Below, one piece after another: positions 2,508 to 17,557 of a stretch of 64,000 bases of DNA. This stretch comes from Odoribacter sp. Z80. GTDB lineage: Bacteria; Bacteroidota; Bacteroidia; Bacteroidales; Marinifilaceae. The DNA is taken from NCBI RefSeq assembly GCF_009935865.1, contig NZ_QWEL01000001.1, positions 1 through 64,000 on the forward strand. Direction: 5' to 3'. The notes under the pieces are model-generated. The model saw only the letters and a list, made by a program, of their open reading frames with translations. It had not been told where the DNA came from and searched no databases. Position numbers and translations under genes: made by a program. Within the stretch, counting starts at the first letter, position 1, and each line of letters opens with the position of its first letter.

Positions 2508-3914
2508 ATGAAGACCAGAATGTATTATTTAAGAATGGTAGTTTTGTTATTGATAGTAGTGGTTTTCCACGGCCATTCTTTGCCGGTGGAAAAAGGAGAA
2601 AATAAGCGGGTGGAGCAGGTAAACCGGAGCCGGGAAAAAATGACGGCTTTTTTTTCTGCTTATTTGGCTGGTGAAGCGAATAACTATCAGGATAAGATTT
2701 CTTTTGGCTTAGCGGAAGTTCAAAAGGTGAGAAATTTAGTATGGGAAAGTTGGAAAGAGGCAAACAGGCATTTTTCGGAACAGAAATTGCCGGAATTGAC
2801 AGAGCTTAATGGCGAGCATTCCGGACAGTGGCAGTTGCCGGAGAGTCTCGAACCTCATGCCGTTATGCCGTATTATTGGGGATATAAGGGGAAAGGAACT
2901 CCTGCGGAAGGTTATCCTTTGTATTTGTATCTGCATGGTTCCGGGGAGAAAAGCAGGGAATGGGCTACGGGGCTTACGATATGTAAAGGGTTTGATGATG
3001 CTCCTTCTGTGTATTTTATTCCTCAGATACCGAATATGGGAGATTATTACCGTTGGTGGCAGAAATCCAAACAGTTTGCCTGGGAAAAGATGTTGCGTCT
3101 GGCTTTTGTTTCTGGTAAGATCAATCCTGACCGAGTTTATTTTTTCGGAATTTCGGAGGGAGGATACGGTAGTCAGCGTCTGGCTTCTTTTTATGCCGAT
3201 TATTTGGCGGCTGCCGGTCCGATGGCAGGAGGGGAGCCTTTGAAGAATGCTCCGGTGGAAAATTGCAGGAATATCGCTTTTTCTTTACGGACGGGAGCCA
3301 ATGATTACGGATTTTACCGGGATAAACTGACGCGTTATACGAGGGAGGAGTTTGAAAAATGGCAGAAACTTTATCCGGAAAATTTCCTCCATTGGATAGA
3401 GTTGATTCCCGGCATGGGGCATGGCATTGACTACAGGCCCACAACTCCTTGGCTAAAGCAACATGTTCGTGATCCTTTCCCGAAATTTGTCAGTTGGGAG
3501 AATTTTGAAATGGACGGACAATACCGGAAAGGTTTTTATAATTTGTTTGTCAAGGAACGTTCAAATGAAGATGAGCACTCCAGGACTTATTACGAGTTAG
3601 CTATAAAGGGAAATGAACTCACGCTGAAGGTTGAGTTAGTAAGTTATGAAACGGTGGAAACGGACCCTAACTGGGGGATAGCACTAAAATCTGAAAAGGT
3701 CTATCGACCAGCTGATAAAGGGAAAGTGGTTGTTTTTCTCCATGAAGAGTTAGTAGATTTGACCCAAAAAGTGACTTTAACGGTGAATGGCAAAAAGGCA
3801 TTTCAGGGAAAGGTAGAGCCTCAATTGAAGCATATGGTGAACAGTTGTGCTCTGTTCTTTGATCCGCAAAGGCTTTATCCGGCAGCTATAGAGATAGATA
3901 TAGCCGATTTATAA
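2508..3914 (+). CDS. secreted alpha/beta-hydrolase esterase with C-terminal beta domain
   Basis: An uncleaved-looking N-terminal hydrophobic signal (residues ~8-24) is followed by an alpha/beta-hydrolase domain. YLYLHGSGEKS (~138-148) gives the oxyanion region, GISEGGYG the nucleophile elbow with Ser216, and GMGHGID the likely catalytic His305. Residues ~345-468 form a separate beta-sandwich-like tail ending in a TLTVNGKKAF segment. The layout resembles PHB-depolymerase or feruloyl-type secreted esterases of Bacteroidota. It is the first gene of the eight-gene glycan operon, 25 bases before the next. An ester-removing role on acetylated host glycan is inferred from the operon; the substrate is not shown. 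Confidence 0.8.
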   Translation: MKTRMYYLRMVVLLLIVVVFHGHSLPVEKGENKRVEQVNRSREKMTAFFSAYLAGEANNYQDKISFGLAEVQKVRNLVWESWKEANRHFSEQKLPELTELNGEHSGQWQLPESLEPHAVMPYYWGYKGKGTPAEGYPLYLYLHGSGEKSREWATGLTICKGFDDAPSVYFIPQIPNMGDYYRWWQKSKQFAWEKMLRLAFVSGKINPDRVYFFGISEGGYGSQRLASFYADYLAAAGPMAGGEPLKNAPVENCRNIAFSLRTGANDYGFYRDKLTRYTREEFEKWQKLYPENFLHWIELIPGMGHGIDYRPTTPWLKQHVRDPFPKFVSWENFEMDGQYRKGFYNLFVKERSNEDEHSRTYYELAIKGNELTLKVELVSYETVETDPNWGIALKSEKVYRPADKGKVVVFLHEELVDLTQKVTLTVNGKKAFQGKVEPQLKHMVNSCALFFDPQRLYPAAIEIDIADL

Positions 3915-3939
3915 GATAAATAATTTTAAATGGTTTAGG

Positions 3940-6288
3940 ATGATGGTGGTGCGAAATTTGTTTTTGATTCTGTGTTGTGTGGTGGCTGTGGTGTTTCAGG
4001 GAAAAGCTTCCCGGACGGATACCGTTCGGATATTCAGTGAGGCTATGCAGAAGGAAATTCCTGCTTTGGTGATTACACCCGGGGAGTTAGCAATAGGAAG
4101 ACGTTTTCCGGTGGTATATATTTTACATGGTTACGGAGGTAGTTATAAGCAAGGTTGGATAACACAGGTGAAAAATTTGCGGGATTATGCCGAAAAGTAT
4201 GAAATGATTCTTGTGTTGCCGGATGGTGGGGCCAGCTGGTATTTTGATAGTCCTGTAGATTCTTCTTACCGGTATGAGACATTTGTGTCGGAGGAGTTGG
4301 TCCGGTATATAGACAAGCATTATCCGACCGTTCGGGACCGTCGGGGACGTGCTGTTACAGGGAATAGTATGGGCGGGCATGGGGCCTTGTTTCTGGCTTT
4401 CCGGCATACGGACGTTTTCGGTGCAGCCGGTGCCACCAGCGGAGGTGTAGACATCCGTCCTTTTTCTGAAAGGTGGGAGATTGCCAAACGTCTGGGCGCG
4501 TATTCCGAGTATCCTGAGCGTTGGGATGCTCATACAGTCATAGAACAAACCCACCATTTGATACCTGGAGCCCAGGCTATTATTTTTGATTGCGGTACGG
4601 AAGATTTTTTTTATCGGGTGAATTGCGATTTGCATGAAAGACTTTCGGCTTTGCATATTCCTCATGAGTTTATTTCCCGTCCCGGCGCCCATCACTGGAA
4701 ATATTGGAAGGATGCCATACGAAATCATTTTCAGTATTTTGACGATTATTTTTCGGCCCAGGGAGTCAAGGGTATGGCTATGCCTGTTATGGGCTGGAGT
4801 TCCTGGAATACATACCAAGTGAATATCAGCGAAGAATTGATTCGTAGCCAGGCTGACGCTATGGTGGAGAAGGGTTTGAAGGCGGCGGGTTATCAGTATG
4901 TGAATATTGACGACGGTTATTGTGGGGGCCGGGATGAGAGCGGAATGCTTCTGTCCCATCCGGAGCGTTTCCCCCGTGGAATGAGAGTCGTTTCGGATTA
5001 TATCCATGCTTTGGGGTTAAAGGCTGGCATTTATTCGGATGCGGGGGCCAATACATGTGGTTCTATCTATAACGGAGAAAAAACAGGAATCGGCATCGGG
5101 TTTTATCAGCATGAATTTCAGGATGCGAAACGTTTTTTTGACGATTGGAACTTTGATTTCATTAAGATAGATTATTGTGGAGGACAGGTGTTGAAATTGG
5201 ATGAAAAAGAGCGTTACACAATGATCCGGGAGGCGATTGATGCAGTAGGAAGGAAAGACATTACCCTGAATATTTGCCGTTGGGCTTATCCGGGTACCTG
5301 GGCAGAACAGGTGGCTCAGTCGTGGAGAATCAGTCATGATATTGTGCCCAAATGGAGTTCGGTGAAATATATTGTTGCTAAGAATTTATATTTGTCTGCT
5401 TTTGCCCGCAACGGACGGTACAATGATATGGATATGCTGGAAATCGGACGGGGATTGAGTGAAGATGAAGAGCACACCCATTTCGGGTTATGGTGTATTA
5501 TGAGTTCTCCTTTGCTGGCCGGATGTGATTTAACTACTATTCCTCCGGCTTCACTGGCCTTGCTGACGAATCCGGAACTGGTGGCATTGAATCAGGATCC
5601 GTTGGGGTTGCAGGCTTATGTAGCGAAATATGATGGTAAGGGATATGTGTTGGTGAAAGACCTGGAGGAAAAAAGGGGAAAGGTTAGGGCTGTGGCTTTT
5701 TATAATCCGACTGACGAGAAGATAAAGATGCATATTGATTTCCGGGATTTGGAATTGGGAGGGAAGGTATCAGTAAGGGATGTTATCCATCGGAAGGAAA
5801 AGGGAGTATACCGGCAGGAATTACGTCAGGAAATACCGGCTCACGGGACATGTATTTTCCGGTTAGAAGCGGAGAACCGTTATGAACCGGAGCTCTATGA
5901 AGCAGAATGGGCCTATTTGAAACGTTATACAGATTGGGAAAAGGAGTATGCTGCCAAACACGGACATTTGAAAAATGCTTCCGGGCAGGTGGTGGTAAAG
6001 TATTTAGGGCATCATCCGGAGAATTATGCGGAATGGGAGAATGTGTATAGTGAAGGAGGAGGAGAATACATATTGGATTTATTTTATGTGGCTGGAGAAG
6101 ACCGGAGGCTGACTTTAACGGTGAACGGGAAGGAGGTGGAGACTGTTTCGCTGAATTCGGGAAGCTGGGAACAACCGGGCCGGCATTCTTTTACGGTTTC
6201 TTTGCAACCGGGATATAATTGTATCCGGATGGGAAATCCTACCGGTTGGGCTCCGGATTTGGATTGTTTTATTTTGAAAAGAAAATAG
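3940..6288 (+). CDS. esterase - GH27 alpha-galactosidase/alpha-N-acetylgalactosaminidase fusion with C-terminal CBM-like domain
   Basis: This is a 782-residue exported multidomain enzyme. Residues 1-24 are a signal peptide. Residues ~28-270 are an esterase-D-like alpha/beta hydrolase with Ser143 in GNSMGGHG, Asp217 or Asp222 in FDCGTED, and His251 or His252 in RPGAHHW. From about 278 a GH27 barrel begins (MGWSSWNTY, NIDDGYCGG). Its nucleophile is Asp411 in FIKIDYCGG and its acid/base Asp498 in NDMDMLEIG. A GH27 C-terminal beta domain follows to ~640. A CBM35/CBM6-like module starting YEAEWA occupies ~645-782. GH27 enzymes remove terminal alpha-Gal or alpha-GalNAc. Having an esterase on the same chain is unusual and suggests acylated substrate ends. 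The gene is second in the operon. Confidence 0.9.
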   Translation: MMVVRNLFLILCCVVAVVFQGKASRTDTVRIFSEAMQKEIPALVITPGELAIGRRFPVVYILHGYGGSYKQGWITQVKNLRDYAEKYEMILVLPDGGASWYFDSPVDSSYRYETFVSEELVRYIDKHYPTVRDRRGRAVTGNSMGGHGALFLAFRHTDVFGAAGATSGGVDIRPFSERWEIAKRLGAYSEYPERWDAHTVIEQTHHLIPGAQAIIFDCGTEDFFYRVNCDLHERLSALHIPHEFISRPGAHHWKYWKDAIRNHFQYFDDYFSAQGVKGMAMPVMGWSSWNTYQVNISEELIRSQADAMVEKGLKAAGYQYVNIDDGYCGGRDESGMLLSHPERFPRGMRVVSDYIHALGLKAGIYSDAGANTCGSIYNGEKTGIGIGFYQHEFQDAKRFFDDWNFDFIKIDYCGGQVLKLDEKERYTMIREAIDAVGRKDITLNICRWAYPGTWAEQVAQSWRISHDIVPKWSSVKYIVAKNLYLSAFARNGRYNDMDMLEIGRGLSEDEEHTHFGLWCIMSSPLLAGCDLTTIPPASLALLTNPELVALNQDPLGLQAYVAKYDGKGYVLVKDLEEKRGKVRAVAFYNPTDEKIKMHIDFRDLELGGKVSVRDVIHRKEKGVYRQELRQEIPAHGTCIFRLEAENRYEPELYEAEWAYLKRYTDWEKEYAAKHGHLKNASGQVVVKYLGHHPENYAEWENVYSEGGGEYILDLFYVAGEDRRLTLTVNGKEVETVSLNSGSWEQPGRHSFTVSLQPGYNCIRMGNPTGWAPDLDCFILKRK

Positions 6289-6307
6289 TGTTTTAACAAA
6301 AGGCGGA

Positions 6308-8290
6308 ATGAGGTTATATCTATTGCTTTTTGGTTTGTATTTTTTGGCCGGGGAGATGTCCTGGGCTGAAAATCGCTGGAAGATAAATCCCCAGGGAGGA
6401 ATTACCTGGCAGGTGAAGTTACAGGAACCGCACAATGACCATATAGAAATGAGTGGTTTGAAGGTTTCTGTTGTATTTCGTTACGGAGTGACTGCGGAGG
6501 GGAGTTTTTGGCTGGACCGTAGTATGGTGTGGCCGACTTTACGTACTGTTCCGAATAATACCCATGCTTCTTTGATGCGGCATATTGCCTGGGATGTACC
6601 TGCTATGGTCACGGTGAACGGACATGCTTTAAGAAATGAGCAGGTCCGGAATATTACTCTGGATGGTGTGATGACGGTGGAGAGTGATTACAGTGGAGGC
6701 CTGACATTGAAACGGATTTTGTTTCCTTCCGTAGACAAATCGGCTTGTTGCGAGAAATATGTGTTGACGTATACGGAGGCCCGTCCGGTGACCGTTGAGA
6801 TTCCGCAGGTCCGTTCGGAGGCTGTTACCGATGCGAGTCAGGGAGTGGATGGAAGTTATAGGATTGTATCTGTTCTACAGGGGAATGGAACCCGGATGTT
6901 GAAACAAGGTGAACAATGTACCTTTTATGCGGTGCATGCAGCTTACCGGATGGAGGAAGAGGACGGGGAGTGGGATGTGGAGGGAGAGTTGGCGGCCCGA
7001 CGGGATTTAGTGGCAGAATGGCAGGAACATCTGGTGTTTGAGACACCGGATTCGGTGGTGAATACCATGTTTGCTTTTGCTAAGGTGAGGGCAGCTGAGA
7101 GTATTTTTGAAACTAAAGGCGGATTGTTGCATGGCCCTGGCGGAGAGTCTTATTATGCTGCCATCTGGGCGAATGACCAGGCGGAATATGTGAATCCTTT
7201 TTTCCCTTATTTGGGTTATGAAAAGGGCAATCGGTCGGCTTTGTGTGCTTATGGCCATTTTGCCCGTTTTATGAATCCTTCTTATCGTAGGTTACCAAGT
7301 TCTATTATTGCTGAGGGTGAAGATATCTGGGACGGAGCCGGAGACCGCGGAGATGCAGCTATGATTGCCTATGGTGCCGCGCGGTATGCTTTGGCGAGGG
7401 GAGATAAGGCGGAGGCTCTGGAATTGTGGCCTTTGATTGAATGGTGTTTGGAATATTGCCGGCGTCAGTTAAATAAGGAAGGGGTGGTGGCTTCCGATTC
7501 CGATGAACTGGAGTACCGTTTTCCGGCCGGAGAGGCTAATCTTTGTACTTCTTCGCTTTATTATGATGCATTGTGTTCTGCTGTGTATTTGGGGAAAGCA
7601 CTTGGTAAGCCGGTGCGGGAACTGGTTTTGTATTCCCGTCAGGCCAAAGAGTTGAGGAGGAATATGGAAAATTATTTCGGCGGTGAAGTGGAAGGTTTTC
7701 AGACTTATTGTTATTATAAGGGAAATGATTGTTTGCGGTCATGGATTTGTATGCCGTTGACGGTGGGAATATATGACCGGAAAGAAGCTACGGTAGCCGC
7801 TTTGTTTTCTCCCCGTTTGTGGACGGAAAACGGTTTGTTGACACAGTCTGGCAGCAGTACGTTCTGGGACCGTTCCACGTTGTATGCTTTGCGGGGTGTT
7901 TTTGCCTGCGGCGAAACGGAAAAGGCTATGGAGTATCTGCATTATTATTCTACTCAGCGTTTGTTGGGGGAACATGTGCCTTATGCGGTGGAAGCATGGC
8001 CTGAGGGGAACCAGCGGCATCTTTCAGCAGAGAGCGGATTGTATTGCCGGATTATTGTTGAAGGTATGTTAGGCATCCGGCCTACGGGATTGGATTCTTT
8101 TGAACTGACTCCCCGCTTGCCCAGATTGTGGGATTATATGAATCTTCGTCACATCAGGGCTTTTGGCACTACCTGGGACATTTTTGTCAGCCGGGCGGGA
8201 AACGGACTGAAGGTAAAAGTGGTGAAGGAAGGAAAAGTGGTTCGTCAACAGAAGATACACGAAGGGGATTGTCTTCGGGTGAGGTTATAA
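6308..8290 (+). CDS. secreted six-hairpin (alpha/alpha)6 glycoside hydrolase, family not assigned
   Basis: A signal peptide (MRLYLLLFGLYFLAGEMSWA) leads a 660-residue protein. An N-terminal beta-rich part (~25-245) precedes an (alpha/alpha)6-toroid catalytic region. Segments typical of six-hairpin glycosidases are GPGGESYYAAIWANDQAEYV (~282-301), IWDGAGDRGDAAM and HLSAESGLYCRIIVEGMLGI near the C-terminus, with a final small beta domain. Acidic residues in WANDQ and DGAGDRGD are candidate catalytic groups. I cannot place it in a numbered GH family by eye; GH78- and GH95-like families share the fold. It is third in the operon with 19 bases before and 12 after, so it should act on the same glycans. 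Confidence 0.7.
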   Translation: MRLYLLLFGLYFLAGEMSWAENRWKINPQGGITWQVKLQEPHNDHIEMSGLKVSVVFRYGVTAEGSFWLDRSMVWPTLRTVPNNTHASLMRHIAWDVPAMVTVNGHALRNEQVRNITLDGVMTVESDYSGGLTLKRILFPSVDKSACCEKYVLTYTEARPVTVEIPQVRSEAVTDASQGVDGSYRIVSVLQGNGTRMLKQGEQCTFYAVHAAYRMEEEDGEWDVEGELAARRDLVAEWQEHLVFETPDSVVNTMFAFAKVRAAESIFETKGGLLHGPGGESYYAAIWANDQAEYVNPFFPYLGYEKGNRSALCAYGHFARFMNPSYRRLPSSIIAEGEDIWDGAGDRGDAAMIAYGAARYALARGDKAEALELWPLIEWCLEYCRRQLNKEGVVASDSDELEYRFPAGEANLCTSSLYYDALCSAVYLGKALGKPVRELVLYSRQAKELRRNMENYFGGEVEGFQTYCYYKGNDCLRSWICMPLTVGIYDRKEATVAALFSPRLWTENGLLTQSGSSTFWDRSTLYALRGVFACGETEKAMEYLHYYSTQRLLGEHVPYAVEAWPEGNQRHLSAESGLYCRIIVEGMLGIRPTGLDSFELTPRLPRLWDYMNLRHIRAFGTTWDIFVSRAGNGLKVKVVKEGKVVRQQKIHEGDCLRVRL

Positions 8291-8302
8291 GAAATTTTTA
8301 AT

Positions 8303-9946
8303 ATGGATATTATGAAGAAAGTGTTTGTTTGTTTGTTTGTAGTTATTTGGTGTTGTTCTTTTTCACTTCGGGCATCTGATACCGTAAGAATTCGGGAGAT
8401 GCAGATCCCTGTTTTGATAGAGCGGGAGGATAATGTTTTATTTTGTTTTCGGATAGATGCTACTGCCGGGCAGGTTTTTAATGAAATCCGGCTGAATTTT
8501 GGGAAAGAGGTAAATCTGTCTGCTATCCAGGCAGTGAAATTGTATTATAGCGGTACAAGAAGATTAAGTGATAAGGAGAAAAATCTGATTGCTCCGGTGG
8601 AGTATATTTCTGCTCATAATCCGGGAAAGACTTTAGCTGCTAATCCTTCTTATTCTGTGTTGAGGGCTTTGGAGAGTAAACCTCGGCGGGAGATTGTTCT
8701 GAAAGCAGAACAAGAATTGTTTGAAGGGCCCCATTTTTATTGGGTGAGTTTACAGATGAAACCGAAGACTTCGTTGTTTGAGAAAGTGACGGTTTCGGTT
8801 TCTGAGGTAAAGGTTGATGGTCGGAGAGTTCCTTTGTTTTTTCATTCTGAACGGGATATTGAGCATCGGATGGGCGTAGGAGTGCGCCATGCTGGCGATG
8901 ACGGTTCGGCTGCTTTTCGGATTCCGGGGTTGGTGACTACTAATCAGGGCACTTTGTTGGGTGTATATGATGTGAGGTATAATAATAGTGCTGATTTGCA
9001 GGAGCATATCGATATTGGCTTGAGTCGTAGTACTGATGGTGGGAAGACTTGGGAGAAGATGCGTATTCCTGTTTCTTTCGGAGAAACGGGAGGTTTACCC
9101 AAAGGACAGAACGGAGTGGGCGACCCGGCAATTTTAGTCGATACTAAAACCAATTGTGTGTGGATTGTGGCGGCCTGGACCCATGGCATCGGGGGACAAA
9201 GGGCTTGGACGGCTTCCGGTCAGGGAATGGACATGAATCATACGGCTCAGTTGGTGTTGGCAAAAAGTGAGGATGACGGAAAGACCTGGTCGGAACCGAT
9301 GAATATAACGGAGCAATTAAAAGATTCTTCCTGGTATTTTCTGTTACAAGGGCCGGGCAGGGGAATTTGTATGGAAGACGGTACGTTGGTTTTTGCTATG
9401 CAATATATCGGTGCGGACCGGATTCCCAATGCCGGGATCATGTATAGCAAGGATGGCGGAAAGACTTGGAAACATCATCATCATGCGCGTACTAATACTA
9501 CTGAAGCACAGGTGGCTGAGTTGGAGCCGGGTGTGTTGATGCTGAATATGCGCGATAACCGGGGTGGCAGTCGCGCGGTTGCTGTAACAGAGGACCTGGG
9601 AGATACCTGGACGGAGCATCCTTCTTCCCGTAAGGCTTTGCCGGAACCTGTATGCATGGCCAGTTTAATCAGCGTGAGAGCCGGAGATAATGTTTCAGGT
9701 AAGGATTTGTTGTTATTTTCTAATCCGAATACTACTTCCGGCCGGCATCATATTACGATAAAAGCCAGCTTAGACGGTGGTTTGACGTGGTTGCCGGAGA
9801 ATCAGATTTTATTGGACGCCGGAAACGGTTGGGGATATTCCTGTCTTAGTATGATTGACGGGGAGACTGTGGGTATTCTTTATGAGAGTAGTGTAGCCCA
9901 TATGACTTTTCAGGCTGTTAAATTAAAGGATTTTATTTCGTTTTAA
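8303..9946 (+). CDS. nanH: exported sialidase (GH33, BNR-repeat neuraminidase)
   Basis: Sialidases release terminal sialic acid from host glycans. The 547-residue protein has a signal peptide (~1-24), then an N-terminal beta-sandwich (~25-185) of the Bacteroides sialidase type. The catalytic propeller opens with FRIP (Arg206, the carboxylate-binding arginine). Five Asp-box repeats follow: STDGGKTW, SEDDGKTW, SKDGGKTW, TEDLGDTW and SLDGGLTW. A late YESS segment carries the expected catalytic Tyr. An alternative ATG lies at 8312 (MKKVFV); both give a good signal. It is fourth in the operon, matching the place of the BT0455-like sialidase beside hexosaminidase, acetylesterase and mannosidase genes. 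Confidence 0.95.
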   Translation: MDIMKKVFVCLFVVIWCCSFSLRASDTVRIREMQIPVLIEREDNVLFCFRIDATAGQVFNEIRLNFGKEVNLSAIQAVKLYYSGTRRLSDKEKNLIAPVEYISAHNPGKTLAANPSYSVLRALESKPRREIVLKAEQELFEGPHFYWVSLQMKPKTSLFEKVTVSVSEVKVDGRRVPLFFHSERDIEHRMGVGVRHAGDDGSAAFRIPGLVTTNQGTLLGVYDVRYNNSADLQEHIDIGLSRSTDGGKTWEKMRIPVSFGETGGLPKGQNGVGDPAILVDTKTNCVWIVAAWTHGIGGQRAWTASGQGMDMNHTAQLVLAKSEDDGKTWSEPMNITEQLKDSSWYFLLQGPGRGICMEDGTLVFAMQYIGADRIPNAGIMYSKDGGKTWKHHHHARTNTTEAQVAELEPGVLMLNMRDNRGGSRAVAVTEDLGDTWTEHPSSRKALPEPVCMASLISVRAGDNVSGKDLLLFSNPNTTSGRHHITIKASLDGGLTWLPENQILLDAGNGWGYSCLSMIDGETVGILYESSVAHMTFQAVKLKDFISF

Positions 9947-9973
9947 CAGGTATCTGTTGTTTTGTAAACGGTT

Positions 9974-11974
9974 ATGTGGAAGAAGTATATCATTTTTTTT
10001 CTTTGTTGTAGTTTTCCTGTTTTGGGAATAGGAAGTCCTTGCCTGTTACCTTTGCCTCAGAAATATACTTTGACGGATGAACGGTTTGAGTTGGGGGAGG
10101 TTTGTCTTTCCGGGCCTGTTTTACAGGAGCAGTGGAAAAAATTCATAGAGGAGAAAGGGGGAAAAGTTGTCTTACAAGGGAAAAACCGGATTGAAGTGAG
10201 GTTGGTAGCGGAGTTGGAGGAAATACCCGTGAATCAGGATGAGGCTTATCGTTTGCAGGTCACCTCCCGCAAAATTGTAGTAGAAGCGACTACTGAGCGG
10301 GGCATTTATTGGGCGATGCAGACTTTGGCCCAATTGGCTGTCCGGAAAGGAAAGAAAATTTATTTTCAAGGTTGTACCATTGCCGATTGGCCGGCTTTCC
10401 GGGTCAGAGGATTTATGCATGACGTGGGGCGGGGATATGTTTCGGTAGAGGAATTGAAGCGGGAGATTGCTATGCTTTCCTGTTTCAAGGTGAATGTATT
10501 CCATTGGCATTTGACGGAGAATCAGGCATGGCGTTTAGAGAGTAAACGATTTCCGGAATTGAATGACAGCGTAAATATGACCCGTTTTCCCGGTAAGTAT
10601 TATACCTTGGAGGAAGCGAGGGAGTTAGTCGAATATTGCAAGGCTCATCAGGTGTTGCTGATTCCGGAAGTGGATATGCCGGGGCATAGTGCGGCTTTTG
10701 TCCGGGCGTTTGGTCATGATATGCAGAGTCCGGAGGGGATGAAGATTCTGAAAGTGTTGATGGATGAAGTGTGTGAAACTTTTGAGGTACCGTATATTCA
10801 TATCGGGACGGATGAAGTGGCGTTTACTAACCCGGAATTTGTACCGGAAATGGTGGCTTATGTGCGTTCAAAAGGAAAGAAGGTCATTTCCTGGAATCCG
10901 GGCTGGCGGTATCAGCCGGGGGAGATAGATATGACTCAATTGTGGAGTTTTCGGGGAAAGGCCCAGCCTGGCATCCCTGCCGTTGATTCCCGTTTTCATT
11001 ATCTGAATCATTTCGATACGTTCGGGGATATTGTTGCTCTGTATAACAGCCGGATTTATAATCAGGAGTCAGGAAGCGAGGATATTGCGGGTGTGATTCT
11101 GGCTGTCTGGAATGACCGCCTGGTTCCGGATGAGAAGGAATTGATTAGTGAAAATCATTTTTATCCCAATATGCTTGCCATGGCAGAGAGGGCGTGGAGG
11201 GGAGGCGGCTTCCAGTATTTTGACGGTCACGGAGTTATTTTACCTGAGGAAGATACGCCGGAGTTTAAGGCTTTCGCTGATTTTGAGGAACGGATGCTTT
11301 GGTTGAAGAAGCATATATTTCAAGGATATCCTTTTGCGTATGTCCGGCAAACGAATGTAAAATGGAAGATAACCGAAGCCTTCCCGAACGGAGGGGACCT
11401 CACCCGGTCTTTCCCTCCCGAGCAGGAATGGGCGGATGTTTATTATTATGAAGGCAGGCCGTATCAGGTGAAAGAGGCCAGGGGGGCGGGTATTTATTTG
11501 CGTCATGTATGGGGAACATTGGTTCCCGCTTTTTATCCGCAGCCAAAAGAAAACCATACGGCCTATGCTTATACGTGGGTATATTCTCCTAAAACCCAGG
11601 AGGTGGGTATGTGGATTGAGTTTCAGAATTACGGCCGCTCCGAGATGGATTTACCGCCTTTGGCCGGAAAATGGGATTATAAAGGGAGCCGGATTTGGCT
11701 GAATGAGCAGGAGGTTTTGCCGCCACAATGGACGGCAAATCATCGGGAAAAAAGCAATGAGATTGCTTTGGGAAATGAGAATTGTGTGGTGAGGCGGCCT
11801 GTCCTTGTGGTGTTGCAAAAGGGATGGAATAAGGTATTTATGAAATTGCCGGTAGGCAGGTTTTCTACTGATGAGGTTCGTTTGGTTAAATGGATGTTTA
11901 CGGCGGTTTTTGTTACTCCGGATGGAGGTGAGGCTGTGGAGGGTTTGATTTATTCACCGGATAAAATAAGGTAA
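9974..11974 (+). CDS. exported GH20 beta-N-acetylhexosaminidase
   Basis: This 666-residue protein has a signal peptide (~1-20), a GH20b-like alpha/beta domain (~24-140) and a GH20 barrel from ~145. Barrel segments include FHWHLTENQAWRLE, PEVDMPGHS and the catalytic pair Asp280-Glu281 in HIGTDEV. The usual motif is HxGGDE, so one glycine is Thr here; the Asp-Glu pair for substrate-assisted catalysis is intact. The C-terminal ~200 residues form a beta-rich accessory region without a clear family. GH20 enzymes remove terminal beta-GlcNAc or beta-GalNAc. The second GH20 of the operon at 15233 differs in export signal and accessory domains, so the two probably cut different linkages. Confidence 0.92.
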   Translation: MWKKYIIFFLCCSFPVLGIGSPCLLPLPQKYTLTDERFELGEVCLSGPVLQEQWKKFIEEKGGKVVLQGKNRIEVRLVAELEEIPVNQDEAYRLQVTSRKIVVEATTERGIYWAMQTLAQLAVRKGKKIYFQGCTIADWPAFRVRGFMHDVGRGYVSVEELKREIAMLSCFKVNVFHWHLTENQAWRLESKRFPELNDSVNMTRFPGKYYTLEEARELVEYCKAHQVLLIPEVDMPGHSAAFVRAFGHDMQSPEGMKILKVLMDEVCETFEVPYIHIGTDEVAFTNPEFVPEMVAYVRSKGKKVISWNPGWRYQPGEIDMTQLWSFRGKAQPGIPAVDSRFHYLNHFDTFGDIVALYNSRIYNQESGSEDIAGVILAVWNDRLVPDEKELISENHFYPNMLAMAERAWRGGGFQYFDGHGVILPEEDTPEFKAFADFEERMLWLKKHIFQGYPFAYVRQTNVKWKITEAFPNGGDLTRSFPPEQEWADVYYYEGRPYQVKEARGAGIYLRHVWGTLVPAFYPQPKENHTAYAYTWVYSPKTQEVGMWIEFQNYGRSEMDLPPLAGKWDYKGSRIWLNEQEVLPPQWTANHREKSNEIALGNENCVVRRPVLVVLQKGWNKVFMKLPVGRFSTDEVRLVKWMFTAVFVTPDGGEAVEGLIYSPDKIR

Positions 11975-11986
11975 ATATAAAGGATT

Positions 11987-12646
11987 ATGAAAAATTGGAT
12001 ATGGGGAATCGTTTGGATTTGTGCGGGTAGCGTCGGTTTTGCGCAACAATATTCTGCTTTTTATTATCAGAGGGAGACCTTGTTTGAAGAGCTACCGGTT
12101 ACTTCAAAAGATATTGTGTTTTTGGGTAACAGTATTACGAACGGAGGAGAGTGGTGTGAATTGTTCGGTAGTAAGCATGTTAAAAACCGGGGTATCAGCG
12201 GGGATGTTTGCATGGGGGTGTATGAGCGTTTGGATGCGGTTTTGAAGGGGAAGCCGGCTAAGATTTTTTTGCTGATAGGTATTAATGATGTTAGCCGCGG
12301 AACCTGTGCAGATACGATTGTAGCCAGGATAGGGTGTATTGCCCGGAAGATAAAGAAAGACTCTCCGAAAACGGAATTGTATTTACAAAGCATATTGCCG
12401 ATGACCGACCATTATCAGATGTTCGGTAATCACACCAAGCATTGGCAGATGGTAAAAGTCATTAATGAGGGGTTGATGCAGCTGGCAGCCCGGGAGGGGG
12501 TTACTTATGTGGATCTGTACTCTCATTTTGTGGATCCGGCAACGGGAAAGATGCAAACGGAGTATTCCAATGACGGTCTGCATTTATTGGGAAAAGGATA
12601 TGTGAAATGGGCGGAGATTTTAAAACCTTATATCCGGAAAAAATGA
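11987..12646 (+). CDS. exported SGNH/GDSL hydrolase, probable sialate O-acetylesterase
   Basis: A 219-residue SGNH hydrolase with a signal peptide ending near GFAQ (residue 20). Block I is FLGNSITNGGEW with Ser49, block II GISGDV, block III IGINDVSRG, and block V NDGLHLLGKGY with Asp196 and His199. The family hydrolyses small ester groups from sugars. The setting between sialidase, hexosaminidase and beta-mannosidase genes matches the Bacteroides sialate O-acetylesterase EstA (BT0457-type), so release of 9-O-acetyl groups from sialic acid is the best guess. Its TGA stop overlaps the ATG of the next gene (ATGA), so the two are translationally coupled. Confidence 0.88.
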   Translation: MKNWIWGIVWICAGSVGFAQQYSAFYYQRETLFEELPVTSKDIVFLGNSITNGGEWCELFGSKHVKNRGISGDVCMGVYERLDAVLKGKPAKIFLLIGINDVSRGTCADTIVARIGCIARKIKKDSPKTELYLQSILPMTDHYQMFGNHTKHWQMVKVINEGLMQLAAREGVTYVDLYSHFVDPATGKMQTEYSNDGLHLLGKGYVKWAEILKPYIRKK

Positions 12647-15204
12647 GAATTGTACTGTTGTTTATGTTGCTGGCAGCGTGTGGGGGACTTGGAGCACAGA
12701 AGCCGTCCGAAATTGTTTCTTTGCTCCGGAACTGGTATTTTTCTCCGGCCGGGGCCGAAGAATGGCTGGAAGCCGAGGTGCCGGGTACGGTGCATCAAGA
12801 TCTGCTGCGACATCAAATTTTGCCTGATCCGTTTTATGGCACTCACGAAGAAAAGATTCAATGGGTAGAGGAAAAGGACTGGGAGTATAAAACGGTTTTT
12901 ACGGTGACATCAGCCCAATTGGAGCGGGATGCGGCTGTTTTGAATTTTGAAGGGTTGGATACTTATGCGGATGTTTATTTGAACGGAGCCTTGATTTTGA
13001 AGGCTGACAATATGTTTGTGGGGTATCGGGTACCAGTGAAGCCGTTGCTTCGTTGCGGGGAAAATCATTTGCGGGTGTATTTTCATTCGCCAGTGAAACA
13101 AACATTGCCGCAGTGGCAGTCGAACGGTTTTAATTATCCTGCTGATAATGACCACCGGGCGGAAAGATTGAGTGTTTTTACCCGTAAGGCTCCTTACAGT
13201 TATGGTTGGGATTGGGGTATCAGGATGGTAACCAGTGGCATTTGGCGTCCGGTGACCTTGTGTTTTCAAGATGTTGTCCGGATTGAAGATTTGCATATCC
13301 GGCAATTGGAGCTTTCTGAGAATAAGGCCAGGCTTTCCGTTGAACTGGAATTGGAGAGGTTGGCAGAGGGGATGCTTTCTCCTTTGAAAGCGGTTGTGAC
13401 TTATTTTTTACCCGGGCAAGAGCCTGAGCGTATTTTCCGGGATGTGGAATTGGATAGGGAGCGTGTAACGATTTCCATTCCTTGTGAGATAGAGCAGCCG
13501 CAGCGATGGATGCCGAATGGTTGGGGAAAACCGGTTTTATATCAGTTTGAAGTGAAGGTATATAGCGGGGAAGAGGTGGTCGCCGCCAGACAACAACGGG
13601 TTGGTCTGCGGACGGTGAAAGTGGTGAAGGAAAAAGATAAGTGGGGAGAGTCTTTTTATTTCGAGGTGAACGGGGTTTCACTGTTTGCCAAAGGAGCCAA
13701 CTATATTCCGGGAGATGCTCTGTTGCCGGCCATGAGTGCCGAGCGGTACCGCACTTTGTTCCGGGACATCAGGGATGCTCATATGAATATGATACGGGTA
13801 TGGGGCGGTGGTTCCTATGAGGATAACCTCTTTTATGATTTGGCCGATGAGAACGGGATTCTGGTTTGGCAGGATTTTATGTTTGCCTGCACCACTTATC
13901 CGTCAGACCCTGTCTTTTTGAAAAGGGTGGAAGCGGAGGCGGAGTATAATATACGGCGTTTGAGGAATCATGCCTGTCTTGCGATGTGGTGCGGGAATAA
14001 TGAGATTCAGGAAGGTATCCGGTATTGGGGATGGAAGAGCAAGTATACTCCGGCTGTTTATGAAGGGATGTGTGAGGGATATGATTTGTTGTTTAAGGAA
14101 TTGCTTCCTGGTAAGGTCAAAGAATTGGACGGAGATCGTTTTTACATGCCTACTTCTCCTGATACGGCCAATTGGGGACGTCCGGAGAGTTGGAAGTTTG
14201 CCGACAGTCATAATTGGGGTGTGTGGTATGGGCGAAAGCCTTTTGAGAGTCTTGATGAGGAGATTCCCCGTTTTATGAGTGAATTCGGATTTCAGTCTTT
14301 TCCTGAAATGAAAACGATATCTGCTTTTGCTTCACAGGAGGATTACGGATTGGAGTCCCGGGTAATGAATGCCCATCAAAAGAGTACTATCGGGAATGAG
14401 CTTATCCGGACTTATATGGAGCGGGATTATGTTGTTCCGGAGAAGTTTGAGGATTTTGTTTATGTCGGATTAGTGATGCAAGGGCGGGGAATCCGTCGGG
14501 GACTTGAGGCTCACAGGCGTAACCGGCCTTATTGTATGGGTACTTTGTATTGGCAGTTGAATGACAGCTGGCCGGTGGTGTCGTGGTCGGGGATTGATTA
14601 TTACGGGAACTGGAAAGCTTTGCATTATCAGGCGAAGCGTGCTTTTGCCCCGCTTGCCGTGAGTGTACTGCAGGCGGAGGATAGTTTGCAGTTTTGGTTG
14701 CTTTCCGATTTGCCGGAAGCTCATAAAGGGCTTGTATTGGAAGCGGAGTTAACGGATTTTTATGGCCGGGTATTGGGCAGGAAAGTTTTTAAGGCAGATG
14801 TGGCGGCCAATACTTCTGTGCTGGCCGGAGGTTGGGATATGAATGGAATAGAGGTTTTCGATGGGCGGAAGATGTATTTGTCAATGACTTTAAAAGATGA
14901 GTCCGGTAAGAAATGGGTTGAGGAACCTTATTTTTTTGTCCGGCCTAAGGAACTGGATTTGCCGGAGATTGTGGTGAATTACAAGATGAAGGTGATGGAC
15001 GGAGTCTGTGAGGTGGTCTTGAAATCTGCCGGTCTTGCCAAGGATGTGTTTATAGAAGTGCCTGTTCAGGGGGCCCGTTTCAGTGACAATTTCTTTGATT
15101 TGTTACCTGTCACTCCCCGCAAGGTGGTGATTACCTCTCCGGCCTTTAAGAAGGGCGGACAGGCAGGGATAAAGATAAATCATTTGCGGAATACTTATAA
15201 GTGA
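12643..15204 (+). CDS. exported GH2 beta-mannosidase
   Basis: The start is the ATG at 12643, inside the ATGA overlap with the esterase gene. It gives MRIVLLFMLLAAC, a possible lipobox, or a signal peptide cut after GAQ. The 853 residues have the GH2 plan: jelly-roll sugar-binding domain, immunoglobulin-like domain, TIM barrel and C-terminal beta domains. The acid/base is Glu454 in WCGNNEIQ and the nucleophile Glu547 in MSEFGFQ. RVWGGGSYEDN and PYSYGWDWG are typical of beta-mannosidases. It would remove the beta-1,4-linked core mannose left after trimming of N-glycans, in line with the hexosaminidases around it. Confidence 0.93.
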   Translation: MRIVLLFMLLAACGGLGAQKPSEIVSLLRNWYFSPAGAEEWLEAEVPGTVHQDLLRHQILPDPFYGTHEEKIQWVEEKDWEYKTVFTVTSAQLERDAAVLNFEGLDTYADVYLNGALILKADNMFVGYRVPVKPLLRCGENHLRVYFHSPVKQTLPQWQSNGFNYPADNDHRAERLSVFTRKAPYSYGWDWGIRMVTSGIWRPVTLCFQDVVRIEDLHIRQLELSENKARLSVELELERLAEGMLSPLKAVVTYFLPGQEPERIFRDVELDRERVTISIPCEIEQPQRWMPNGWGKPVLYQFEVKVYSGEEVVAARQQRVGLRTVKVVKEKDKWGESFYFEVNGVSLFAKGANYIPGDALLPAMSAERYRTLFRDIRDAHMNMIRVWGGGSYEDNLFYDLADENGILVWQDFMFACTTYPSDPVFLKRVEAEAEYNIRRLRNHACLAMWCGNNEIQEGIRYWGWKSKYTPAVYEGMCEGYDLLFKELLPGKVKELDGDRFYMPTSPDTANWGRPESWKFADSHNWGVWYGRKPFESLDEEIPRFMSEFGFQSFPEMKTISAFASQEDYGLESRVMNAHQKSTIGNELIRTYMERDYVVPEKFEDFVYVGLVMQGRGIRRGLEAHRRNRPYCMGTLYWQLNDSWPVVSWSGIDYYGNWKALHYQAKRAFAPLAVSVLQAEDSLQFWLLSDLPEAHKGLVLEAELTDFYGRVLGRKVFKADVAANTSVLAGGWDMNGIEVFDGRKMYLSMTLKDESGKKWVEEPYFFVRPKELDLPEIVVNYKMKVMDGVCEVVLKSAGLAKDVFIEVPVQGARFSDNFFDLLPVTPRKVVITSPAFKKGGQAGIKINHLRNTYK

Positions 15205-15232
15205 TAATTGTATTAATTTAATATAGAGTGCT

Positions 15233-17557
15233 ATGAGAAGATTAGTTTGTGTTTTTCTGACTGTTTTGTTGCTGAAGTTACTGGTGGCCTGTTGTCCAGA
15301 ACAGAAGACGGCGGATTACCGGGTAGTGCCTTTGCCGCAGGAGATTACTGCCGGGGAGGGAAATCCTTTTGTTTTGAAAGACGGAGTGAAGGTTTTGTAT
15401 CCCGAAGGAAATGACGAGATGCGACGGAATGCTGAGTTTCTGGCGGAATATGTGGCGGAATCTACCGGAAAACATTTGGATATCCAGGCCGGAAATGCAG
15501 GGGAGAATGCTATCGTATTGAGCTTAGGCCTGGAGGCTGGGAAACCGGAGGCCTACCAATTGAAGGTGACCGATAAAGGAGTTACAATATCCGCACCTAC
15601 AGCAGCCGGGGTTTTTTATGGTATTCAGACTTTGCGTAAGTCTTTGCCGGTGGTAAAGGGTGCAAAGATTGTATTGCCTTCCGTTGTTGTCAATGATTCT
15701 CCGCGTTTTGATTATCGTGGAATGATGTTGGATGTGAGCCGCCATTTTTTTACCCTTGATTCGGTGAAGCGGTATATTGATTTGCTGGCGTTGCATAATA
15801 TCAATCGATTTCACTGGCATTTGACAGATGATCAGGGATGGCGGATTGAGATAAAGAAATATCCGGAATTGATAGAGAAGGGATCGAAACGCAAAGAGAC
15901 GGTCATAGGACATAATACGGGAAAATATGATGGAGTTCCTTACGGTGGTTTTTACACTCAGGAGGAGGCGAAGGAGATTGTTGCTTATGCTAAGGAGCGT
16001 TATATTACCGTTATTCCGGAAATTGATATGCCGGGTCATATGCAGGGGGCACTGACTGCTTTTCCGGAATTGGGATGTAGTGGCGGGCCTTATGAGGTTT
16101 GGTCCATGTGGGGTGTTTCAGAAGAAGTGCTTTGTGCAGGAAATGATAAGACGCTTGAATTTATAAAAGGTGTTCTGGGTGAACTGATTGAAATTTTTCC
16201 CTCGGAATATATTCATGTCGGAGGGGATGAATGTCCGAAAGTGAGTTGGAAAAAATGTCCCAAATGTCAGGCTAAAATCAAGGCCTTGGGTTTGAAAACA
16301 GATAAACAGCATACGGCGGAAGAACGTTTGCAGAGTTACTTTATTGCCCAGGCAGAGAAATTTTTGAATGAGCATGGAAGGCAGATTATCGGTTGGGATG
16401 AGATTTTAGAAGGGGGCTTGGCTCCTCATGCGACAGTGATGGCCTGGCGGGGGATTGGTGAAGGAGTGAAAGCGGTGAAACAACATCATGATGCGATTAT
16501 GGTGCCGACATCTTATCTGTATTTTGATTATTATCAGGCAAAGGACAGAGAACAGGAACCGATGGCTATTGGCGGGTATGTTCCTTTGGAGAAGGTGTAT
16601 GGTTTTGACCCTGTTCCGGCGGACCTGACACCGGAGGAGGCCAAACATATTATCGGTACGCAGGCGAATCTGTGGACGGAATATATCCCTTCTTTCAGGC
16701 AGGTGGAATATATGGTTTTGCCTCGTATGGATGCTCTTGCGGAGGTTCAATGGACGGAACCGGAAAAGAAGAGTTTTGAGGATTTTCTGAGCCGTATGCC
16801 CAAAATGTTTGAAATTTATGATTTGGGGCGGTATAATTATGCGAGACATTTGTTTGATGTGAGGGGGGATTTTACGCCTCGTGCAGAGGACGGGGTATTG
16901 GAAATTACTCTGTCTACCTTAGGAAATGCAGATATTCATTATACCTTGGACGGTTCGGAACCAACGGTTCGGTCTCTTAAATATGAAGATGGGATAAAGG
17001 TGAAGGAAGATTGTATTCTGAAAGCTGTTGCTGTTCGTCCCTCGGGAAATAGCCGTGTTCTGACGGAAAAAATTACGATGAATAAAGCGACTTTGAAGCC
17101 CATTACTTTACATCAGCCGGTGAATCAGCAATACGGTTTTAAGGGAGCTCCTACTTTGGTAGACGGTTTGAAGGGGAGTCCTAATTATAAGACCGGGCGT
17201 TGGATTGCTTTTTACAGAAATGACCTGGAAGCGGTGATAGATTTATTGCAACTGACAGAGATTTCGAAAGCCGGTATTGCTACGTGTGTAGAAAAGGGAG
17301 ACTGGATTTTTGATGCTCGCGGAATGAAGGTGGAAATCTCTTCTGACGGAAAAAATTATGTTGAGGTGGCAGCTTTGGAGCTGCCGCCTATGGAGAAAGA
17401 TGCCCGTAACGGGATATATGAGCATGTTTTATCTTTTCCTCCGATGCAAGCCCGTTATGTTAAGATCACGGCTTTGTCGGAAAAGCAGATTCCGGATTGG
17501 CATGGAGGAAAAGGCCACCCGGGATTTTTATTTGTGGATGAGGTCACAATTGAATGA
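15233..17557 (+). CDS. GH20 beta-N-acetylhexosaminidase lipoprotein with CBM32-like domain
   Basis: Residues 1-20 end in LVAC, a lipobox, so this 774-residue enzyme is probably surface or periplasmic lipoprotein. A GH20b domain (~28-160) precedes the barrel: MLDVSRHFF, FHWHLTDDQGWRIEIKKYPEL, PEIDMPGHMQGAL and the catalytic Asp332-Glu333 in HVGGDE. Near the end are a chitobiase-type C-terminal repeat (HYTLDGSEPT) and a discoidin/CBM32-like module (~620-774), which often binds galactose or GlcNAc. It closes the operon: the next gene is convergent, with its stop 10 bases away. It is a full-consensus GH20, unlike the HIGTDE paralogue at 9974. Confidence 0.94.
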   Translation: MRRLVCVFLTVLLLKLLVACCPEQKTADYRVVPLPQEITAGEGNPFVLKDGVKVLYPEGNDEMRRNAEFLAEYVAESTGKHLDIQAGNAGENAIVLSLGLEAGKPEAYQLKVTDKGVTISAPTAAGVFYGIQTLRKSLPVVKGAKIVLPSVVVNDSPRFDYRGMMLDVSRHFFTLDSVKRYIDLLALHNINRFHWHLTDDQGWRIEIKKYPELIEKGSKRKETVIGHNTGKYDGVPYGGFYTQEEAKEIVAYAKERYITVIPEIDMPGHMQGALTAFPELGCSGGPYEVWSMWGVSEEVLCAGNDKTLEFIKGVLGELIEIFPSEYIHVGGDECPKVSWKKCPKCQAKIKALGLKTDKQHTAEERLQSYFIAQAEKFLNEHGRQIIGWDEILEGGLAPHATVMAWRGIGEGVKAVKQHHDAIMVPTSYLYFDYYQAKDREQEPMAIGGYVPLEKVYGFDPVPADLTPEEAKHIIGTQANLWTEYIPSFRQVEYMVLPRMDALAEVQWTEPEKKSFEDFLSRMPKMFEIYDLGRYNYARHLFDVRGDFTPRAEDGVLEITLSTLGNADIHYTLDGSEPTVRSLKYEDGIKVKEDCILKAVAVRPSGNSRVLTEKITMNKATLKPITLHQPVNQQYGFKGAPTLVDGLKGSPNYKTGRWIAFYRNDLEAVIDLLQLTEISKAGIATCVEKGDWIFDARGMKVEISSDGKNYVEVAALELPPMEKDARNGIYEHVLSFPPMQARYVKITALSEKQIPDWHGGKGHPGFLFVDEVTIE

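Follow-up and report, generated by a model that had tools for sequence, protein, structure and literature searches.

A predicted esterase joined to a GH27 domain and a CBM35-like module in Odoribacter sp. Z80

The window analyzed here, a stretch of 64,000 nucleotides from Odoribacter sp. Z80, contains a single frame of 782 codons without an internal stop that appears to encode an esterase, a GH27 barrel and a carbohydrate-binding module in one polypeptide. The locus raises the question of whether this join is real and, if it is, what the two enzymes might do together.

Architecture of the fused gene and its junction

The original prediction, made from the letters of the DNA, that one polypeptide holds an esterase, a GH27 domain and a C-terminal CBM-like domain is borne out by the frame and by Pfam and, for the CBM, by relatives and structure (Table 1). 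Residues 33–261 match the Pfam Esterase profile with 102.4 bits against a cut-off of 22, and the Melibiase_2/GH27 profile scores 168.6 bits against a cut-off of 23. The C-terminal ∼130 residues match CBM35/CBM6-like domains weakly at the level of sequence (Pfam CBM_35, E 0.04, below the cut-off; PDB entries 5x7o, E 6.6e-7, and 2w47, E 0.005); the equivalent domain of relatives is clearer (CBM_6, E 4.8e-6 for L107, E 3.5e-4 for L035), and Foldseek pairs the domain with the modular Xyn30D (4qaw). The structure model of the GH27-CBM half is of high confidence, and its Foldseek matches are alpha-galactosidases and the beta-L-arabinopyranosidase SaArap27A; the esterase half of the model has pLDDT below 50 and is unusable. 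A hydrophobic leader opens the fused protein, as it does the standalone esterases, and the fused protein is presumably secreted.

Table 1. Features of the fused gene and its neighbors, in window coordinates.
Feature	Coordinates	Strand	Basis or description
Upstream gene, distant alpha/beta-hydrolase esterase-like protein	2508..3914	+	Relatives 49–64% identical in four genomes
Fused gene	3940..6288	+	782 aa: signal peptide-esterase-GH27-CBM35-like
Signal-peptide-like N terminus	3940..4011	+	Residues 1–24; hydrophobic run then GKA-S (sequence)
Esterase domain (PF00756, CE1-like)	4012..4758	+	Residues 25–273; Pfam E 4.7e-29
Predicted esterase nucleophile Ser143 (GNSMG)	4366..4368	+	Invariant in 8 standalone relatives
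Esterase Asp222	4603..4605	+	Invariant in 8 standalone relatives; aligned with 7xrt/5vol
Esterase His251	4690..4692	+	Invariant in 8 standalone relatives; aligned with conserved His of 7xrt/5vol
Junction	4753..4782	+	Residues 272–281, SAQGVKGMAM; standalone esterases stop and standalone GH27s start here
GH27 barrel (Melibiase_2)	4783..5598	+	Residues 282–553; Pfam E 2.4e-49, confident model, Foldseek 3a21/6f4c/1uas
Asp325, GH27 specificity position	4912..4914	+	Alignment with GH27 structures and relatives
Predicted GH27 nucleophile Asp411	5170..5172	+	Alignment with solved GH27s
Arg447 (CRW)	5278..5280	+	Invariant in GH27 subgroup
Predicted GH27 acid/base Asp467	5338..5340	+	Alignment with solved GH27s
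Melibiase_C beta sandwich	5647..5865	+	Residues 570–642; Pfam E 1.9e-7, above cut-off
CBM35/CBM6-like domain	5887..6285	+	Residues 650–782; PDB, relatives, model, Foldseek
Downstream gene, conserved protein	6308..8290	+	No Pfam family; weak GH65-C match in relatives
Sialidase (BNR, GH33-type)	8303..9946	+	Pfam; 65–71% in congeners
GH20 hexosaminidase a	9974..11974	+	Pfam
SGNH/GDSL esterase	11987..12646	+	Pfam
GH2, mannosidase-type Ig domains	12607..15204	+	Pfam
GH20 hexosaminidase b	15233..17557	+	Profile scan

The esterase ends at about residues 271–273 and GH27 starts at 282, with about ten residues between them; standalone esterases stop at about residue 273, and standalone GH27 proteins begin at about 281 after a leader of their own. 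A frameshift or a misreading of two genes, a possibility raised with the original prediction, is ruled out within the limits of what sequence can show: the join is in frame at a domain boundary, and neither alternative frame of the junction holds a remnant of a GH27 signal peptide. Judged from the letters, an indel could not have produced this join, but it could have arisen if the intergenic stretch and the signal peptide had been cleanly lost. That an assembly or sequencing artefact joined the two genes is very improbable. It would agree with the occurrence of the fusion in one genome only, one that lies in 47 contigs, but the join coincides precisely with the domain boundary and leaves no stranded signal peptide in any frame, the genes on either side run in the same direction and are closely packed, genome completeness is 99.8% and contamination 0.05%, and both genes stand side by side in none of the best 80 GH27 relatives. 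On present evidence the fusion of the two enzymes looks real, and a fusion of two secreted carbohydrate enzymes is probably a species-level feature.

Predicted active sites and specificity

The first half combines the PF00756/CE1-like profile match with a Ser-Asp-His triad, which alignment with the solved esterases 7xrt and 5vol places at S143-D222-H251. Ser143 and His251 had been named correctly at the outset; His252, offered as an alternative to His251, is variable among the eight standalone relatives. The closest PDB entry is 7xrt, a "ferulic acid esterase" (E 4.6e-28). Both 7xrt and 5vol have the CE1-like fold and the triad in common with the esterase half, but they are standalone and show only a distant likeness to it in alignment. 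Standalone CE1-like esterases of Bacteroidales (L005, L006, L170) are ∼45–55% identical over residues 5–275 and have the same triad; they differ in stopping, at ∼275 aa, where the fused protein continues, and in having Leu, Phe or Tyr in place of Asn at residue 142. Since the annotation of these closest solved structures is ferulic acid esterase, acetyl specificity of the predicted esterase half is an assumption.

The second half likewise joins a profile score above the cut-off to the catalytic Asp pair of GH27. Asp411 and Asp467 align with their counterparts in 1uas, 6f4c and 3a21 and are invariant in 27 relatives, and Asp467, which lies in SWRISHDI, has the catalytic Asp of both rice alpha-galactosidase and SaArap27A as its counterpart. 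The original pairing of Asp411 with Asp498 thus stands for Asp411 as the nucleophile and fails for Asp498, which sits in the conserved sugar-contact motif YNDMDM, the acid/base being Asp467.

At the GH27 specificity position, Asp indicates alpha-D-galactosidase and Glu or Ile beta-L-arabinopyranosidase (PMC4598101). The fused protein has the alpha-galactosidase-type residue there, Asp325. The alpha-galactosidases of rice and tobacco (1uas, 6f4c) have the GH27 fold, the catalytic Asp pair, the DD sugar-binding pair and the Cys pair in common with the GH27 domain of the window, but they carry CEW in place of CRW and lack both esterase and CBM. SaArap27A (3a21), the top Foldseek match, also has extra C-terminal beta domains after GH27, but it has Glu at the position of Asp325, CNW in place of CRW, and CBM13, and no esterase. 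The CRW motif is present in the fused protein and all 27 relatives, whereas CEW stands there in the GH27 structures from plants and Bacteroides used in the alignment. Arg447 lies near the expected O2 pocket, where it is matched by none of the five aligned solved GH27s and takes the place of the Glu that characterizes alpha-galactosidases at the CEW position.

The small Ser and Ala that give room for the N-acetyl group in alpha-N-acetylgalactosaminidases are absent as well, Arg447 and Tyr450 occupying their positions, and position 450 is Tyr or Phe in the GH27 subgroup. The human equivalents of Arg447 and Tyr450 are presumably Glu203 and Leu206 in GLA and Ser188 and Ala191 in NAGA. The targets suggested at the outset were O-acetylated alpha-GalNAc or alpha-Gal at mucin or blood-group-like ends. 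Because Arg447 and Tyr/Phe450 stand in place of the small residues that accommodate N-acetyl, alpha-GalNAc appears disfavored as a GH27 substrate, and alpha-Gal would be a tentative candidate.

Distribution of the fusion and of its parts

No second copy of the fusion turned up in the 56 remaining genomes of the family, in 392 further genomes sampled from the order, in 394 sampled from the phylum (these samples overlap, some genomes falling in more than one) or among the best 80 GH27 relatives on GTDB-type contigs, and a search of viral contigs was without a match. No published report of a GH27-esterase fusion was found in a search that lay mostly outside the subscription literature. Elsewhere the GH27-CBM part (50–60% identical) and the esterase (45–55%) are separate genes. 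Two congeners with GH27 carry it unfused, and in a quick GH27 tree the window protein lies on a long branch, the GH27s of these congeners grouping with Bacteroides sequences instead. Standalone GH27-CBM35-like proteins of Phocaeicola vulgatus ATCC 8482 (L056) and Phocaeicola massiliensis (L047) show 58% identity across the GH27, Melibiase_C and CBM regions and have the same invariant CRW, Asp411 and Asp467, but have no esterase attached or in the flanks examined.

Occurrence in a single genome means that no conservation backs an advantage of the bifunctional protein. It also agrees, as do the clean end-to-start join and the freedom with which GH27s of the order swap partners (NPCBM, GH16, GH43, CBM), with a chance rearrangement that joined two halves serving different glycans, each with its own target bond, and that gave rise to no cooperative function. 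This explanation is nevertheless unlikely, since both predicted active sites are intact and no similar esterase gene lies in the flanks (up to 6 kb) of the best 80 GH27 relatives, so that a simple deletion between neighbors is undocumented. The two activities do occur together elsewhere, as indicated by genome G120, in which a separate esterase gene (51% identical) and a separate gene for a different GH27, ∼5.6 kb from each other, belong to a single co-directional CAZyme cluster with GH92, GH38, GH43 and SGNH genes, and by L164, in which a standalone esterase stands beside GH92 and SGNH genes. The co-directional cluster at L170:223-14457 comprises an unfused esterase, an unfused GH27, GH92, GH38, GH43, a GH78-like protein and SGNH.

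A new GH27 partner fits the evolution of the family, since GH27s of Bacteroidales are often multi-domain (NPCBM-Ig-GH27, GH27-GH43, GH27-CBM-GH16). Long GH27 frames of the order (650–980 aa) were considered as further esterase fusions and rejected, their N-terminal parts having no match to the esterase profile; in the ten scanned, these parts hold domains of NPCBM type, of Ig type or of no identified family, and a GH43 domain closes one of the frames. In another Bacteroidales genome GH27 is fused to a GH43 domain (L221:643-3570). In ruminant-gut Bacteroidaceae, close relatives of the GH27-CBM part have long C-terminal extensions: L089:5932-10158 and L103:5938-8793, the two that were domain-scanned and both fused to GH16, and frames of 1405–1421 aa in L093, L105, L106, L109 and L118.

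Gene neighborhood and proposed function

The neighbors at 2508–17557 all lie on the same strand as the fusion with short gaps, and no SusC or SusD was found among those scanned. A sialidase, two GH20s, an SGNH esterase and a mannosidase-like GH2 in this set favor a host-glycan setting for the fused protein. The sialidase and GH20 hexosaminidase b are adjacent in two congeners, and the other cluster genes were therefore probably gathered around or between these two. In its listed form the GH2 frame shares some sequence with the final part of the SGNH gene, and the true GH2 start is probably at 12643. For the downstream conserved protein (660 aa), neither Pfam nor NCBIfam nor the PDB gave a match above the cut-off, and a profile search against the PDB returned nothing credible; copies 39–68% identical occur in about 15 Bacteroidales genomes, in tandem in G079 (L136, L148) and embedded in a longer frame in G064 (L144). 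It is a candidate for an uncharacterized glycoside hydrolase family.

Genes found next to the esterase relatives encode, among others, GH92, GH3, SGNH, SASA and sulfatase proteins; the GH27 relatives have a mixed set of neighbors (GH2, GH43, GH78, GH31, SusD, SASA) that gives no pointer to host glycans. Against a host-glycan role stands the fact that the best solved relatives of the esterase are named ferulic acid esterases, after a plant substrate. A plant-glycan enzyme would remove feruloyl or acetyl groups together with alpha-Gal, or another pyranoside, from side chains of pectin or arabinogalactan, and the beta-L-arabinopyranosidase fold nearest in Foldseek (3a21), the GH43, GH78 and GH2 genes near GH27 relatives and the fusions of GH27 to GH16 or GH43 elsewhere are consistent with such a role. 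It is nonetheless improbable, given that the immediate neighbors are a sialidase, two GH20s and SGNH and that Asp325 argues against beta-L-arabinopyranosidase.

The preferred reading, to which a probability of roughly 0.55 is assigned, is a secreted bifunctional enzyme, de-esterifying and of alpha-galactosidase type, acting on a decorated host glycan. The fused gene, its domains and residues, its neighbors and the lack of the fusion in the genomes searched are direct observations; we infer secretion, activity, the acyl group, the substrate and the cooperation of the two halves. The CE1-like serine esterase half would take an acyl group, acetyl or similar, off a sugar by means of its triad and so remove ester caps that stand in the way of exo-acting enzymes, and the retaining GH27 half would cut a terminal alpha-D-galactosyl-type residue, with Asp411 and Asp467 in their predicted roles. 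The CBM35-like domain may keep the enzyme close to the glycan, on which the exported protein would work with the neighboring sialidase, hexosaminidases, SGNH esterase and mannosidase-like enzyme. A narrower proposal, in which ester removal is followed by cleavage of one and the same acylated alpha-linked sugar at a host-glycan end in an Arg-based (CRW) GH27 pocket of undescribed specificity, is highly tentative and rather doubtful.

The fusion looks like an unusual combination of well-known parts, not found elsewhere in the genomes searched. The CRW signature marks a widespread GH27 subgroup of Bacteroidales, no characterized member of which was found in this analysis. If the halves act in sequence on one sugar, their action would show that gut glycans bear an acylated alpha-galactosyl-type cap, and the fused protein would be a ready-made tool for removing it.
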